A stretch of DNA of 64,000 nucleotides from Paracoccaceae bacterium (GTDB taxonomy: Bacteria; Pseudomonadota; Alphaproteobacteria; Rhodobacterales; Rhodobacteraceae), in assembly GCA_017510335.1 (NCBI GenBank), contig JAFWNM010000028.1, positions 124,001 to 188,000 on the forward strand, given 5' to 3'. The position numbers and the translations under genes are program-made. Each line of letters begins with the position of its first letter. Position 1 is the first letter of the stretch. Below, piece after piece: positions 49,850-53,558 of this stretch. The notes beneath the pieces were generated by a model. It made no database searches and had not been told where the DNA came from. It saw only the letters and a program-made list of their open reading frames with translations.

Positions 49850-50025
49850 GCCTGCCCCGTTCCGCTTTTGCCGCTGCGCTTTGCGATGCCACTAGACTAG
49901 GTATGTTGCACTAGTCATCTGTATTCTTGTGATCCCGCTTACTATATATGGTGTGCTTAAATGCACCATGAGTAAAGTGAAATCGCCAGTCCAGCCGCAA
50001 TTACCTGTGGATTGTTGTTGTGGCG

Positions 50026-50065
50026 TGACAGCAAATGTTGCAGGGTTTGACAGCAATAGTTGCAG
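50026..50065. repeat. Two 18-bp direct repeats at 22-bp pitch near the host-prophage junction
   Basis: TGACAGCAAATGTTGCAG (50026-50043) and TGACAGCAATAGTTGCAG (50048-50065) differ at two positions and start 22 bp apart, two helical turns. Each holds an inverted repeat GCAA-N3-TTGC. A weaker TGTTGCA also occurs near 49904. Possible transposase end-binding sites or operator; no promoter is evident nearby. Confidence 0.6.
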
Positions 50066-50098: not shown

Positions 50099-50545
50099 CT
50101 ATCTGAACCAATACATTGAACGGCGCGATCTACGAAGAACTGACCGCATTTTGTGGGCAACCTTTATGATTTCTGCTGCGCGGTCAGGATCCATTTTCTT
50201 AGACTGCGTTTCGAAATCGCCGCCTGTGGCAATATCGTAAAGCTCCGCATCCAAAGCAAAGTACTCTTTCCCATTGCAGCCTAGAAGACGCTCCGCGCTT
50301 GGCCTGAAACAGTCAGCAACGGATAAAGCTCCATAGATGCGCGCACGTAGGCATTTATCTTCATGAGAGAGATGCTTGGCGCTCGAAAGCCAATAAGCAA
50401 TGGCTGATTGCTCCAGCGTTTCTAAGTCATCAATATGGTCGTTCAGTAACTTCACGTCTTCATCAATAATGCGAATATAATTCTGTGCGAGGTAGGTCAC
50501 TATCCCCCCACCGATAAAGCCAAGAACAACCTCGCCTAAACCCAT
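50099..50545 (-). CDS. Small N-terminally membrane-anchored protein, third gene of the accessory operon
   Basis: 148 residues, not recognised. A single membrane segment is at residues 5-22 (EVVLGFIGGGIVTYLAQN). It is followed by a mostly helical, charged cytoplasmic part (DEDVKLLNDHIDDLETLEQS, later RAAEIIKVAHKMRSVLRRSRR). AAGGAGCTCGATGAA precedes the ATG, 21 nt after the DUF4325 stop. Codon use is AT-richer than in the flanking host genes. A membrane effector or sensor role in the operon is inference. Confidence 0.7.
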   Translation of the reverse strand: MGLGEVVLGFIGGGIVTYLAQNYIRIIDEDVKLLNDHIDDLETLEQSAIAYWLSSAKHLSHEDKCLRARIYGALSVADCFRPSAERLLGCNGKEYFALDAELYDIATGGDFETQSKKMDPDRAAEIIKVAHKMRSVLRRSRRSMYWFR

Positions 50546-50566
50546 TTCATCGAGCTCCTTAGAAAA

Positions 50567-50908
50567 TCAGCTAGGCAGAGCCCTCTCGATGTGTCGCAAT
50601 GCAGCTGTCCTGTAACGTTCGAGTTCTTTCATCGTCACCACTATGCGGAGGTGATTTTCTAATTCTTTCTTCGTAAACTTGTCATCGCGCACAAGTCCGC
50701 CAAACGCAGAATCCAAAAATGATGAACCGCACGAGAGCAAGCCATCCATGCTCACCGTCAATTTTCCACCAGCTTGAATGACCTCCCTCAGCTTCGGAGC
50801 AAGGTGATTGATCCGAAACGTCTCACCATTATATGGGCCATCGATTTTGCTTCGGCCCGCAGGATACTTCCAGAACTCACTGGCAATGTTGAGCATTTTA
50901 TCACCCAT
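50567..50908 (-). CDS. STAS-like DUF4325 protein
   Basis: 113 residues from the ATG at 50908, which overlaps the end of the HATPase gene by 8 nt; AAGGA lies 9 nt upstream. SKIDGPYNGETFRINHLAPKL and DGLLSCGSSFLDSAFGGLVR (55-74) match the DUF4325 pattern, a fold related to STAS anti-anti-sigma domains. Proteins of this type often neighbour GHKL ATPases, which recalls the SpoIIAB-SpoIIAA partner-switching pair. A longer in-frame start at 50989 lies inside the HATPase gene and has no matching homology. Confidence 0.75.
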   Translation of the reverse strand: MGDKMLNIASEFWKYPAGRSKIDGPYNGETFRINHLAPKLREVIQAGGKLTVSMDGLLSCGSSFLDSAFGGLVRDDKFTKKELENHLRIVVTMKELERYRTAALRHIERALPS

Positions 50909-52121
50909 CCTGAGATTTCCTTCGATCAATCTTGAGTCGCCACTGAATGAGCGTGCCACCGATCGAGTGTGTACTGATTTCTCGTACAATATCGGTTTTG
51001 TAAGCGTAACGGCAAGTACCTCCTCGACTAATAATGCAGAGTTCCCCGCTTTTACTTATATCGATTAGCTCCTTCATTTCTGGTAGTCCAAGACCACGGT
51101 TCACCTGATTTGTTTGCGTCTTTCCTGGCAACAACGCTGCGGCGATGTAGGCAGCATCATCCGAGTAGGCATGATCTCCAGCCTGGCCAATTATAGAGAG
51201 CAGGAAGTCGCGAATATGTTGTTTTAGCTCCTTCTTCGGAAAAGTAACCGGAATCGATGCACCCTGATCATATATCACAACCGTTAACTCTCGACTTACA
51301 CGATCTGCTGAGGCAGCTACCCACCAGCGCCCCACATGGGAAACTTCAAAGTTCTCGTCCGTCGGATATGCATGCCCAGCAACGTTGCTCATGGCCTCCG
51401 CCAACGATGAGTTCAGTGCGATCCTTACACTGGGCTCTAGAGGATCGTTTTCATCGATGAAGCTGGCCAACTGCAGGATATTCTCAGCAGCTTGCGCGAT
51501 TTGCTCAGAATCCTTTCCTGAAACGATGCGCATCACACGTACGTCGCCATCGGTGCGGTACCTTTCCGCAACATCTTCGGACAGACCCACAATCTCGAAA
51601 AAGCCAACTTCGTAAAGCTTCCGAAACAACTCCGGGTGCCAAGTATGAAGATTGATTGTAGGGGGCACGCTATCGCACAACCGCCTTGATCGGTCATACT
51701 CTGCGGAAAGCACTAGTGCTGCTGCGGTGGAAATAGCTTCAATTTTCGAGTAGTCGTGATATCGTCGTATCCAACTGAGGGACCTAGCATTTCTTCCGGG
51801 ATTGACCCAATTGTTCCCAGAACGCTTGACGCTTGGTGCGCTCGCGTAGCTTAGAAAAGACTGATTTAATGACATTCGAAGGCTGTGCAAAAACGAAAGC
51901 GTTTCATCACGATTTTGATTGAAACATAGTATACGTGGTGGTGCTACAGCGCCCTCAGTAACCAACAGCTTCTCAGTGTGGGAGCCAAACCACGCATCGA
52001 CAATTTGGCGATGCAGTCTCTTCGAAGTTTTTAGAACTGGCCTTCTTAGGTTCCGCTTCTTCTTTTGGGATGCAGCGCGATGGCGCAACCAGCGATGGAA
52101 TCTTGCAGTCAATCGCTTCAC
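50901..52121 (-). CDS. GHKL/HATPase-fold ATP-binding protein, first gene of the accessory operon
   Basis: 406 residues. The C-terminal half carries the ATPase boxes: N-box SLAEAMSNVAGHAYP (E242, N246, H250), G1 VVIYDQGASIP (D285), G2 RGLGLPEMKEL (about 342-352) and a final GGT (388-390). No histidine-phosphoacceptor or receiver domain is seen. The N-terminal 180 residues are very basic at first (residues 1-40) and unrecognised afterwards. The start is GTG at 52121 with GAGG 8 nt upstream. It looks like an anti-sigma-type kinase or other regulatory ATPase. Codon choice is unlike that of the host genes. Confidence 0.8.
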   Translation of the reverse strand: MKRLTARFHRWLRHRAASQKKKRNLRRPVLKTSKRLHRQIVDAWFGSHTEKLLVTEGAVAPPRILCFNQNRDETLSFLHSLRMSLNQSFLSYASAPSVKRSGNNWVNPGRNARSLSWIRRYHDYSKIEAISTAAALVLSAEYDRSRRLCDSVPPTINLHTWHPELFRKLYEVGFFEIVGLSEDVAERYRTDGDVRVMRIVSGKDSEQIAQAAENILQLASFIDENDPLEPSVRIALNSSLAEAMSNVAGHAYPTDENFEVSHVGRWWVAASADRVSRELTVVIYDQGASIPVTFPKKELKQHIRDFLLSIIGQAGDHAYSDDAAYIAAALLPGKTQTNQVNRGLGLPEMKELIDISKSGELCIISRGGTCRYAYKTDIVREISTHSIGGTLIQWRLKIDRRKSQDG

Positions 52122-52545: not shown

Positions 52546-52579
52546 GGGGTGAAGCGGGCATTCAAGCCCGCTTCACCCC
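52546..52579. terminator. Perfect 14-bp hairpin between convergent genes
   Basis: GGGGTGAAGCGGGC (52546-52559) pairs with GCCCGCTTCACCCC (52566-52579), loop of 6 nt. It starts right after the stop of the small gene and contains the stop codon of the methylase gene, so it can serve both directions. No T-run follows. Confidence 0.75.
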
Positions 52580-53376
52580 GGCTTGAAATTCATGATCAGC
52601 ACCTCGGCCGCTGCCTTCGGCCCGCTTGAGGCCGCAGTGTAGACGGTGCTGATCTCCTTGATCTCGAAGCCCCCGAACACCTCACGCACGCCCGGCGTGT
52701 CGTTCAGGGACATGATGAAGCGGCCCTTCAGCGTGCCGAGCTGGGTGGCCATATCCTCGAACCGTTCCCTGCTGAACAACGCACGCCCGTAATAGCCCTC
52801 GCAGCCCCAGTAAGGCGGATCGAGGTAGAACAGCGTGTCCTTGTGATCGATCCGGCGCATGAATTCCGCGAAATCAAGGCAGGTCACGCACACGCCCGAC
52901 AGGCGCGTGTGCAGCGCTTCCAGATCCGATTCCAGCGTCGTCAGGTTGAACCGCCCGGCGCGTTCGCGCGACAGACCGAAGGACCGGCCATTCACTTTGC
53001 CGCCGAAGCTGACGCGCTGCAGATACAGGAACCGTGCGGCGCGTTGCATGTCCGTCAGTGTTTCAGGATCGACCTGGATCAGTCGTTCGAAATTGGCCTG
53101 CGTCGTGATCTGGAAGCGAAGTAGGTCCAGAAACGCGACATAATGCTCCTGTAGAACCCTGAACAGATTGTAGACATCGCGGGAGCGGTCATTGATGAAT
53201 TCCGCCCTCGGACGCGATGTCCGTCGCAGGAAAACGCCACCCATCCCAACGAACGGCTCTGCATAGGTCTTGTGCGCCTGATCGGCGTCGATGATGGCGC
53301 AGATGCGCTTGGCGAGGTTGCGCTTGCCGCCAATCCACGGGGCAATCGGGCGGGCGTTTCGGGGTGTGTCTGTCAT
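52573..53376 (-). CDS. DNA adenine methylase (D12 class, Dam-like)
   Basis: 267 residues. APWIGGKRNLAKRI (12-25) and YAEPFVGMGGVFL (38-50) are the SAM-binding motifs X and I, and FYLDPPYWG (DPPY at 186-189) is the catalytic motif of N6-adenine methylases. The D12 class usually methylates short sites such as GATC; the actual target is unknown. Its ATG overlaps the com stop by 4 nt (ATGA). Phage use of such enzymes is mostly protection from host restriction. Confidence 0.9.
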   Translation of the reverse strand: MTDTPRNARPIAPWIGGKRNLAKRICAIIDADQAHKTYAEPFVGMGGVFLRRTSRPRAEFINDRSRDVYNLFRVLQEHYVAFLDLLRFQITTQANFERLIQVDPETLTDMQRAARFLYLQRVSFGGKVNGRSFGLSRERAGRFNLTTLESDLEALHTRLSGVCVTCLDFAEFMRRIDHKDTLFYLDPPYWGCEGYYGRALFSRERFEDMATQLGTLKGRFIMSLNDTPGVREVFGGFEIKEISTVYTAASSGPKAAAEVLIMNFKPG

Positions 53377-53558
53377 TGGCCTTGGCCTTTCACTATGGGG
53401 CGCTGGGGGCGCTCTGGGGAAAGGGCTCGTGGCCTCAGGATGTTCATAGCCCGGCAACGCGGGCATTTTATACTGACGACACCGGATAATGCGTCAGGTT
53501 CTGCACAGAATAACAGCCGCGCACAGGCGCAGCAACGGATTTGCTCTTGTTCGCGCAA
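53373..53558 (-). CDS. com: Com-like zinc-finger translational regulator
   Basis: 61 residues. QIRCCACARLLFCAEPD and SIKCPRCRAMNILRPRA follow phage Mu Com: CxxC at 9-12 and CxxC at 32-35, with RLLF between. Mu Com binds the mom mRNA and opens its start codon for translation. Here the downstream, ATGA-overlapping gene is an adenine methylase instead of mom. There is no ATG; the start is TTG at 53558 with GAGGTGA 6 nt upstream. Confidence 0.85.
   Translation of the reverse strand: MREQEQIRCCACARLLFCAEPDALSGVVSIKCPRCRAMNILRPRALSPERPQRPIVKGQGQ

Follow-up and report, generated by a model that had tools for sequence, protein, structure and literature searches.

This study concerned three adjoining genes, here called K, S and M, in a 64,000-nt stretch of contig JAFWNM010000028.1 from a Paracoccaceae bacterium (hereafter the window). 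They form a tight operon on the minus strand, transcribed in the order K, S, M, and would specify a kinase-like ATPase, a STAS-like protein of the DUF4325 family and a small membrane protein, respectively (Table 1). K and S overlap by 8 nt, S and M are separated by 21 nt, and a sequence resembling a Shine–Dalgarno site, as judged by eye, precedes each start. Order, strand, coordinates and the 8-nt overlap, all proposed in a sequence-only reading of the window, were confirmed. The same reading had described codon use in the cassette as AT-richer than that of both neighbours, and this is borne out by third-position G+C values of 0.48–0.54 in K, S and M against 0.64–0.77 in the seven adjoining genes measured; overall G+C is 48.8% in the cassette, 61.6% in the adjoining host DNA and 63.1% in the adjoining prophage DNA. 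The arrangement is not due to chance, because the identical order recurs across phyla. Promoter- and terminator-like sites were no more frequent at the cassette than in shuffled sequences, and searches of the PADLOC-DB 2.0.0 HMMs with all three proteins, at E-values up to 1, returned no families.

Table 1. Features of the K-S-M cassette and its border, in window positions
Feature	Position	Strand	Description
K	50901..52121	-	406 aa; GTG start at 52121; ends at 50901, stop included
STAS-like N-terminal half of K	51597..51938	-	residues ~62-175, limits approximate; aligned to the STAS half of related kinases
N box of K	51372..51398	-	residues 242-250 (E..N..H); E242 in 117/118 rows, N246 in 118/118
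W266-W267 of K	51321..51326	-	family feature; W in 108/118 and 110/118 rows
G1 box of K	51252..51269	-	residues 285-290 (DxGxxI); D285 and G287 in 118/118 rows
G2 box of K	51084..51098	-	residues 342-346 (RGxGL); G343 and G345 in 118/118 rows
S	50567..50908	-	113 aa; ATG at 50908; stop included
Ser62 of S	50723..50725	-	candidate phosphorylation site; aligned to chain Ser66 of 9z7o
M	50099..50545	-	148 aa; stop included
N-terminal membrane segment of M	50477..50533	-	residues ~5-23, place read from sequence; Kyte-Doolittle mean 1.57 over 19 residues
AxxYW-type motif of M	50390..50404	-	residues 48-52; A in 63, Y in 78, W in 68 of 112 rows
TGGxF motif of M	50213..50227	-	residues 107-111; T in 90, G in 73, G in 63, F in 96 of 112 rows
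Host-prophage border repeat	50017..50053	+	37-bp direct repeat, 35/37 identical; second copy ~37.5 kb rightward

The location at a prophage–host junction, also proposed earlier, has been substantiated, and the element to the right of the cassette proves to be a Mu-like prophage. It carries genes for a Mu transposase (PF02914, 2.1e-45), a Mu portal protein (1.2e-98), a terminase, an S24-peptidase protein, a tail sheath and a D12 adenine methyltransferase. DNA similarity to three genomes of the same genus stops at 50031, 50032 and 50048, just past M, and the direct repeat at this border recurs at about 87510–87546 (window numbering extended along the contig), so the cassette lies at one extremity of the prophage as its outermost cargo. 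The target duplication of Mu is only a few bases, which the 37-bp repeat exceeds in length, and a motif, TGACAG..AT..TGCAG, recurs near the repeat and in intergenic DNA of relatives. The D12-class methyltransferase gene (52573–53466, minus strand, 6.3e-25) adjoins the cassette, and its relatives lie near the comparable end of two other Mu-like elements, L256 and L257. Profiles of K, S and M found no match within 10 kb past the tail gene of three related Mu-like elements. Among 195 related genomes, K occurs in five and DUF4325 in eight (the genome of the window being counted in both), and the genes are therefore accessory rather than core.

Relatives of S were collected with an alignment of ten S proteins (A1), which found 285 among genome contigs and 167 among viral ones; S of the window (P0003) alone found no relative in the viral contigs. 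The loci examined were 80 of the former, 80 of the latter and ten found earlier, making 170 (L016–L020, L023–L027 and L029–L188; L021 and L022, whose DUF4325 proteins belong to other families, were left out, as was the fragmentary L028), and as L023 had no A1 match, counts refer to 169. K lies directly upstream of S at 157 of these loci, and of the 12 without it, five have a stretch upstream of S that is shorter than 800 bases, while in two others K is hidden by the choice of ORF start. A third gene directly follows S at 164 loci, 132 by profile and 32 by position and length alone, the rules being a match to profile A3 at E <0.01 (ten of its eleven seed rows are among the 132) or an ORF of 120–260 aa within 30 nt; K and a profile-matched M occur together at 125. 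In a sample of 398 genomes of the same phylum, not chosen by motif, any DUF4325 was present in 29 and the type of the window in ten, its own genome included in both. K was matched in all nine others and a third gene in eight (six by profile, two by position), with L234 showing none and the third protein of L226 having no clear membrane segment. The trio is, then, not confined to the genome in which it was first noticed but recurs across phyla. Pairwise distances among 103 non-redundant loci of 117 co-vary between K and M (0.74), K and S (0.52) and S and M (0.46), with none of 500 permutations as high, which shows joint inheritance of the three genes, not interaction of their products.

Many of these loci are on mobile elements. 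When named phages were searched by tblastn, K (P0002) and three other K proteins found only Marinobacter phage AS1, in which a divergently oriented Cro/CI gene and a single small gene come before the trio; S of the window (P0003) found none, and one other S also found Vibrio phage VH-8. In the latter, the DUF4325 gene (L236:4980-5312) comes after an annotated transcriptional repressor and no annotated kinase adjoins it. The trio is also present on plasmids of Leptospira interrogans, Vibrio alfacsensis and Novosphingobium. On the Leptospira plasmid (L026:5881-8683) it sits beside nucleotidyltransferase and HepT-like genes, and on the Vibrio plasmid (L027:4507-7547) beside MazF and AbrB/MazE-like genes, both pairs being toxin–antitoxin-like. 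For Francisella phage KIRK, a published table places beside the CI repressor a protein of 293 aa resembling one of AS1, a DUF4325 protein of 112 aa and a TM protein of 125 aa (PMC7924643); these are apparently the same trio, on which the table makes no comment.

The sequence-only reading had asked whether the three genes keep together across mobile elements and defence islands, and the first of these holds whereas the second finds little support. Among the upstream ORFs (118 of 143 given to Pfam, one of which, at L018, is in fact part of the kinase), the commonest families are Peptidase_S24 (15) and HTH_3 (12). From each genome-contig locus no more than two ORFs downstream of the trio were taken, 126 in all, and these matched 77 PADLOC families, but among the 25 families listed, mad2 was found in two ORFs and the others in one each, so known defence genes are rare and scattered and membership of defence islands is weakly indicated. 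Integrase families (of five and four members), terminases and methyltransferases are found among the same ORFs, and the surroundings of the trio suggest prophage cargo more than a defence island.

K is predicted from its sequence to be a kinase-like ATPase with a STAS-like N-terminal half followed by a GHKL part. The GHKL-type ATPase had been recognised before, and its N, G1 and G2 boxes are present and conserved in an alignment of 118 rows, but the additional STAS-like half had been missed. The match to Pfam HATPase_c_2 (2.1e-06) is barely above the cut-off (28.2 vs 27.4 bits), that to PHROG is to a function-unknown family (phrog_3364, 1.9e-42), and its own genome holds a single match to K. 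The solved structures nearest to K by sequence are SpoIIAB and RsbW (7e-04 to 1.2e-03). A profile of K proteins (A7) matched a profile of seven STAS-GHKL kinases, three of them encoded beside PIN genes, at 99.4% (E 4.6e-22), these seven kinases standing in this comparison for published VapK. A pair of tryptophans, W266-W267, is characteristic of the K family, and no counterpart was seen by eye in the seven other STAS-GHKL kinases; it may reflect an input that differs from ssDNA. In a tree of 43 kinases, in which midpoint rooting and long branches make exact placements unsure, the 36 K-S-M kinases form one side of a branch with support of 99/98, and the PIN-type kinase of L217 groups with two other PIN-type kinases (98/89). 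Nearest to the K of the window are a kinase encoded by an Aquimarina MAG (Bacteroidota), with 48% identity, and kinases of Roseovarius, which fits horizontal spread.

S matches PF14213 (DUF4325) at 3e-09 and phrog_5816, and Pfam finds no second domain in it. Alignment A1 matched DUF4325 profiles of PIN-type and related loci at 95.9% (5.3e-09). A profile built on eight DUF4325 proteins of other loci matched Escherichia VapS (PDB 9z7o, solved as VapS–VapC) at 1.6e-23, and one with eleven proteins of the K-S-M type added to those eight did so at 6e-15, whereas single S proteins, and A1 alone, did not match it significantly. The residue of 9z7o to which Ser62 aligns is probably Ser48 of VapS, if the 134-residue chain bears an 18-residue tag, as the numbering up to 116 in the published work would imply. 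Position 62 is Ser at 151 of 169 loci and Thr at six (157 together); at the other 12, at least seven of which have Ala, it is neither, and these count against a phospho-switch. S of the window deviates at D66 and S67, two positions otherwise fixed across the family; the search motif, SFLEE[AV]FG, presets residues 63–70 in 160 loci and is partly responsible for this fixity in most other rows.

M gave no match above chance to Pfam, NCBIfam, PADLOC or PHROG families. The single N-terminal membrane helix ascribed to it earlier corresponds to one hydrophobic segment, and an AlphaFold2 model (pLDDT 95.5; helices at 3–52, 61–79, 81–107 and 120–146) predicts a long N-terminal helix containing this segment and three more helices. 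A hydrophobic N-terminal segment (mean ≥1.2) is found in 152 of 164 third proteins and in 23 of 126 flanking ORFs, and among the 130 third proteins at ≥1.4, Lys and Arg are more numerous after the segment than before it in 119, so the helical domain of M is predicted to lie, probably, on the cytoplasmic side. Third proteins do vary, and some have no clear membrane segment (six of 164 are below 1.0, besides the L226 protein mentioned above). Among 116 M proteins, 15 Pfam families were matched at E up to 0.01, each in one protein, and PIN was not one of them. The best matches to solved structures, to a designed helical repeat (3.3e-05) and to a CCR4-NOT subunit (0.0013), were read as reflecting helix composition and set aside. 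Sequence searches recognised no effector fold in M, which counts against its being an effector.

The closest described relatives are VapKSC and CapKS. As described in PMC13373217 (EMBO J 2026), VapKSC is an operon in which genes for a STAS antitoxin and a PIN toxin accompany that for a STAS-GHKL kinase, and it protects E. coli about 100-fold (2 logs) against phage Bas42, with the serine of VapS being required, while CapK is an HTH-STAS-GHKL protein, activated by ssDNA, that phosphorylates CapS, a STAS-wHTH repressor. In both, the kinase phosphorylates the STAS protein, a repressor or toxin is released, and no sigma factor is needed (PMC13373217); the name DUF4325 was not found in that article. 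K-S-M shares with VapKSC the order of kinase, STAS protein and third component, homologous kinases and DUF4325-type STAS proteins, and a candidate phospho-Ser at the position of VapS S48. It differs in the third gene, which encodes a PIN nuclease there and here a membrane-anchored helical protein with an all-helical model and no Pfam family, and in its kinases, which form a separate supported group in the tree. A further difference may concern the ssDNA-stacking aromatic of CapK and VapK (F54 of VapK, situated between STAS and GHKL): such a residue was not recognised in the alignment of K proteins, and no invariant aromatic stands out in their STAS half. With CapKS the trio has in common a STAS-GHKL kinase, a STAS partner and a relation to phage defence (putative for K-S-M), but CapK has an HTH and CapS a wHTH, neither of which Pfam finds in K or S (residues 16–48 of K gave only a weak, sub-cut-off match to HTH_ABP1_N, 0.058), and CapS represses a neighbouring immune operon.

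Kinship to SpoIIAB/SpoIIAA and RsbW/RsbV, which the sequence-only reading had emphasised, stands insofar as these pairs combine a GHKL Ser-kinase with a STAS substrate and supply the solved structures nearest to K, but VapKSC and CapKS are closer relatives, and K-S-M has an extra STAS half on K and a membrane-protein third gene. As that reading had also stated, there is no sigma factor among the three genes, as judged from ORFs and Pfam. RexAB of lambda is a prophage gene set with a membrane component; the analogy drawn to K-S-M is one of place only, near the repressor in some phages. WonAB, considered as a three-gene relative, is unrelated: its ABC ATPase is of the OLD type and its nuclease of the PD-(D/E)xK type. 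The DefensePredictor work names an HATPase in a legend. K-S-M was not found as a described system in the open literature, as distinct from preprints (bioRxiv), most subscription papers and supplements. Other combinations of the same partners were encountered. Three loci of the phylum sample (L214, L215, L217) consist of a kinase, a DUF4325 protein and a PIN protein. At L022 (9856-10923, minus strand), Pfam finds a GHKL ATPase fused to DUF4325 and to a winged-HTH-like domain in one protein, and by length and N-terminal sequence the same fusion occurs at L209, L211, L212, L218, L220 and L223, giving one-piece regulators made of the same two partners. In the genus of the window, L021 (6068-7233, minus strand) has a 291-aa STAS-GHKL kinase followed by a 98-aa DUF4325 protein and no evident effector gene.

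By sequence, K-S-M is a conserved, unnamed unit related to VapKSC but with a predicted membrane protein replacing the toxin. On balance we lean towards regarding it as a prophage-carried module of kinase, STAS regulator and membrane effector, a sister of VapKSC. In the resting state, S would be bound to membrane-anchored M and keep it inactive; an activated K would phosphorylate S at Ser62, as homology suggests, and phosphorylated S would release M, whose action at the inner membrane could then bring about arrest of the cell or a block to the incoming phage. The analysis establishes that K and S are homologous to VapK-like kinases and VapS, that gene order is conserved, that the genes are inherited together and that they are located on prophages and plasmids, and it gives a predicted fold for M with a likely cytoplasmic position of the helical domain; phosphorylation, the direction of the switch, M as effector and a role in phage defence are inferred. 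Points against this reading are the loci with neither Ser nor Thr at position 62, the ssDNA-stacking aromatic not recognised in K, the variation among third proteins, the lack of a recognised effector fold in M, the failure of single S proteins and of A1 alone to match VapS, and the rarity of known defence genes in the flanks. The sequence-only reading had pictured a partner-switching module, with a membrane effector, for defence or exclusion; this is partly supported, in that homology to VapKSC and CapKS favours the switch logic, the third component is membrane-anchored and the trio is carried as prophage cargo. M could also be the input rather than the output: as a sensor or scaffold anchored in the membrane, it would recruit K and S there and control them, with phospho-switched S acting on a host or phage target elsewhere. 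We consider this unlikely, as the third gene of VapKSC, in the same place, is a toxin and Pfam finds no second domain in S, even though M bears no enzyme signature and its predicted structure, helices on an anchor, is simple, the strongest co-variation is between K and M, and kinase and DUF4325 pairs without an evident third gene do occur (e.g., L208, L222, L224, L021).

Less probable again is a module that serves the prophage itself, in induction, lysis timing or its own superinfection immunity: its presence on plasmids and its absence from the comparable end of three related Mu-like elements, which make it optional cargo, argue otherwise, and most of the 118 upstream ORFs are not repressors. 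In favour of such a module are the prophage location, the Peptidase_S24 and HTH_3 families upstream, which are typical of phage repressors, and the nearness of a Cro/CI gene in phage AS1. The cassette of this strain might instead be passive or decaying cargo with no present function, and its AT-rich, foreign composition, the off-family residues D66 and S67 and a relative (L018) with its kinase split into two ORFs could be read in that way. This we regard as very improbable given that all three frames are open, with sequences resembling ribosome-binding sites, and that the ATP-binding boxes of K are intact; the fixity of residues 66–67 elsewhere is, moreover, partly a product of the search motif.

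The favoured reading, of a sister module to VapKSC with a membrane effector, leads to the broader proposal of a widespread, unnamed class of phage-carried immune systems, in which an infection-activated kinase would phosphorylate a STAS antitoxin and release a membrane-anchored helical effector; we hold the arguments for and against such a class to be evenly balanced. It predicts roles for Ser62 in S and for the N box in K, and toxicity of M. If true, the switch of VapKSC and CapKS would be a module into which different outputs can be plugged, be it a nuclease, a repressor or a membrane protein. The gating of a toxin by a Ser kinase and a STAS protein would be extended to a large family with a new kind of effector, often carried by temperate phages and also by plasmids. 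DUF4325, a Pfam domain of unknown function, would then gain a probable role as a phospho-switched inhibitor.
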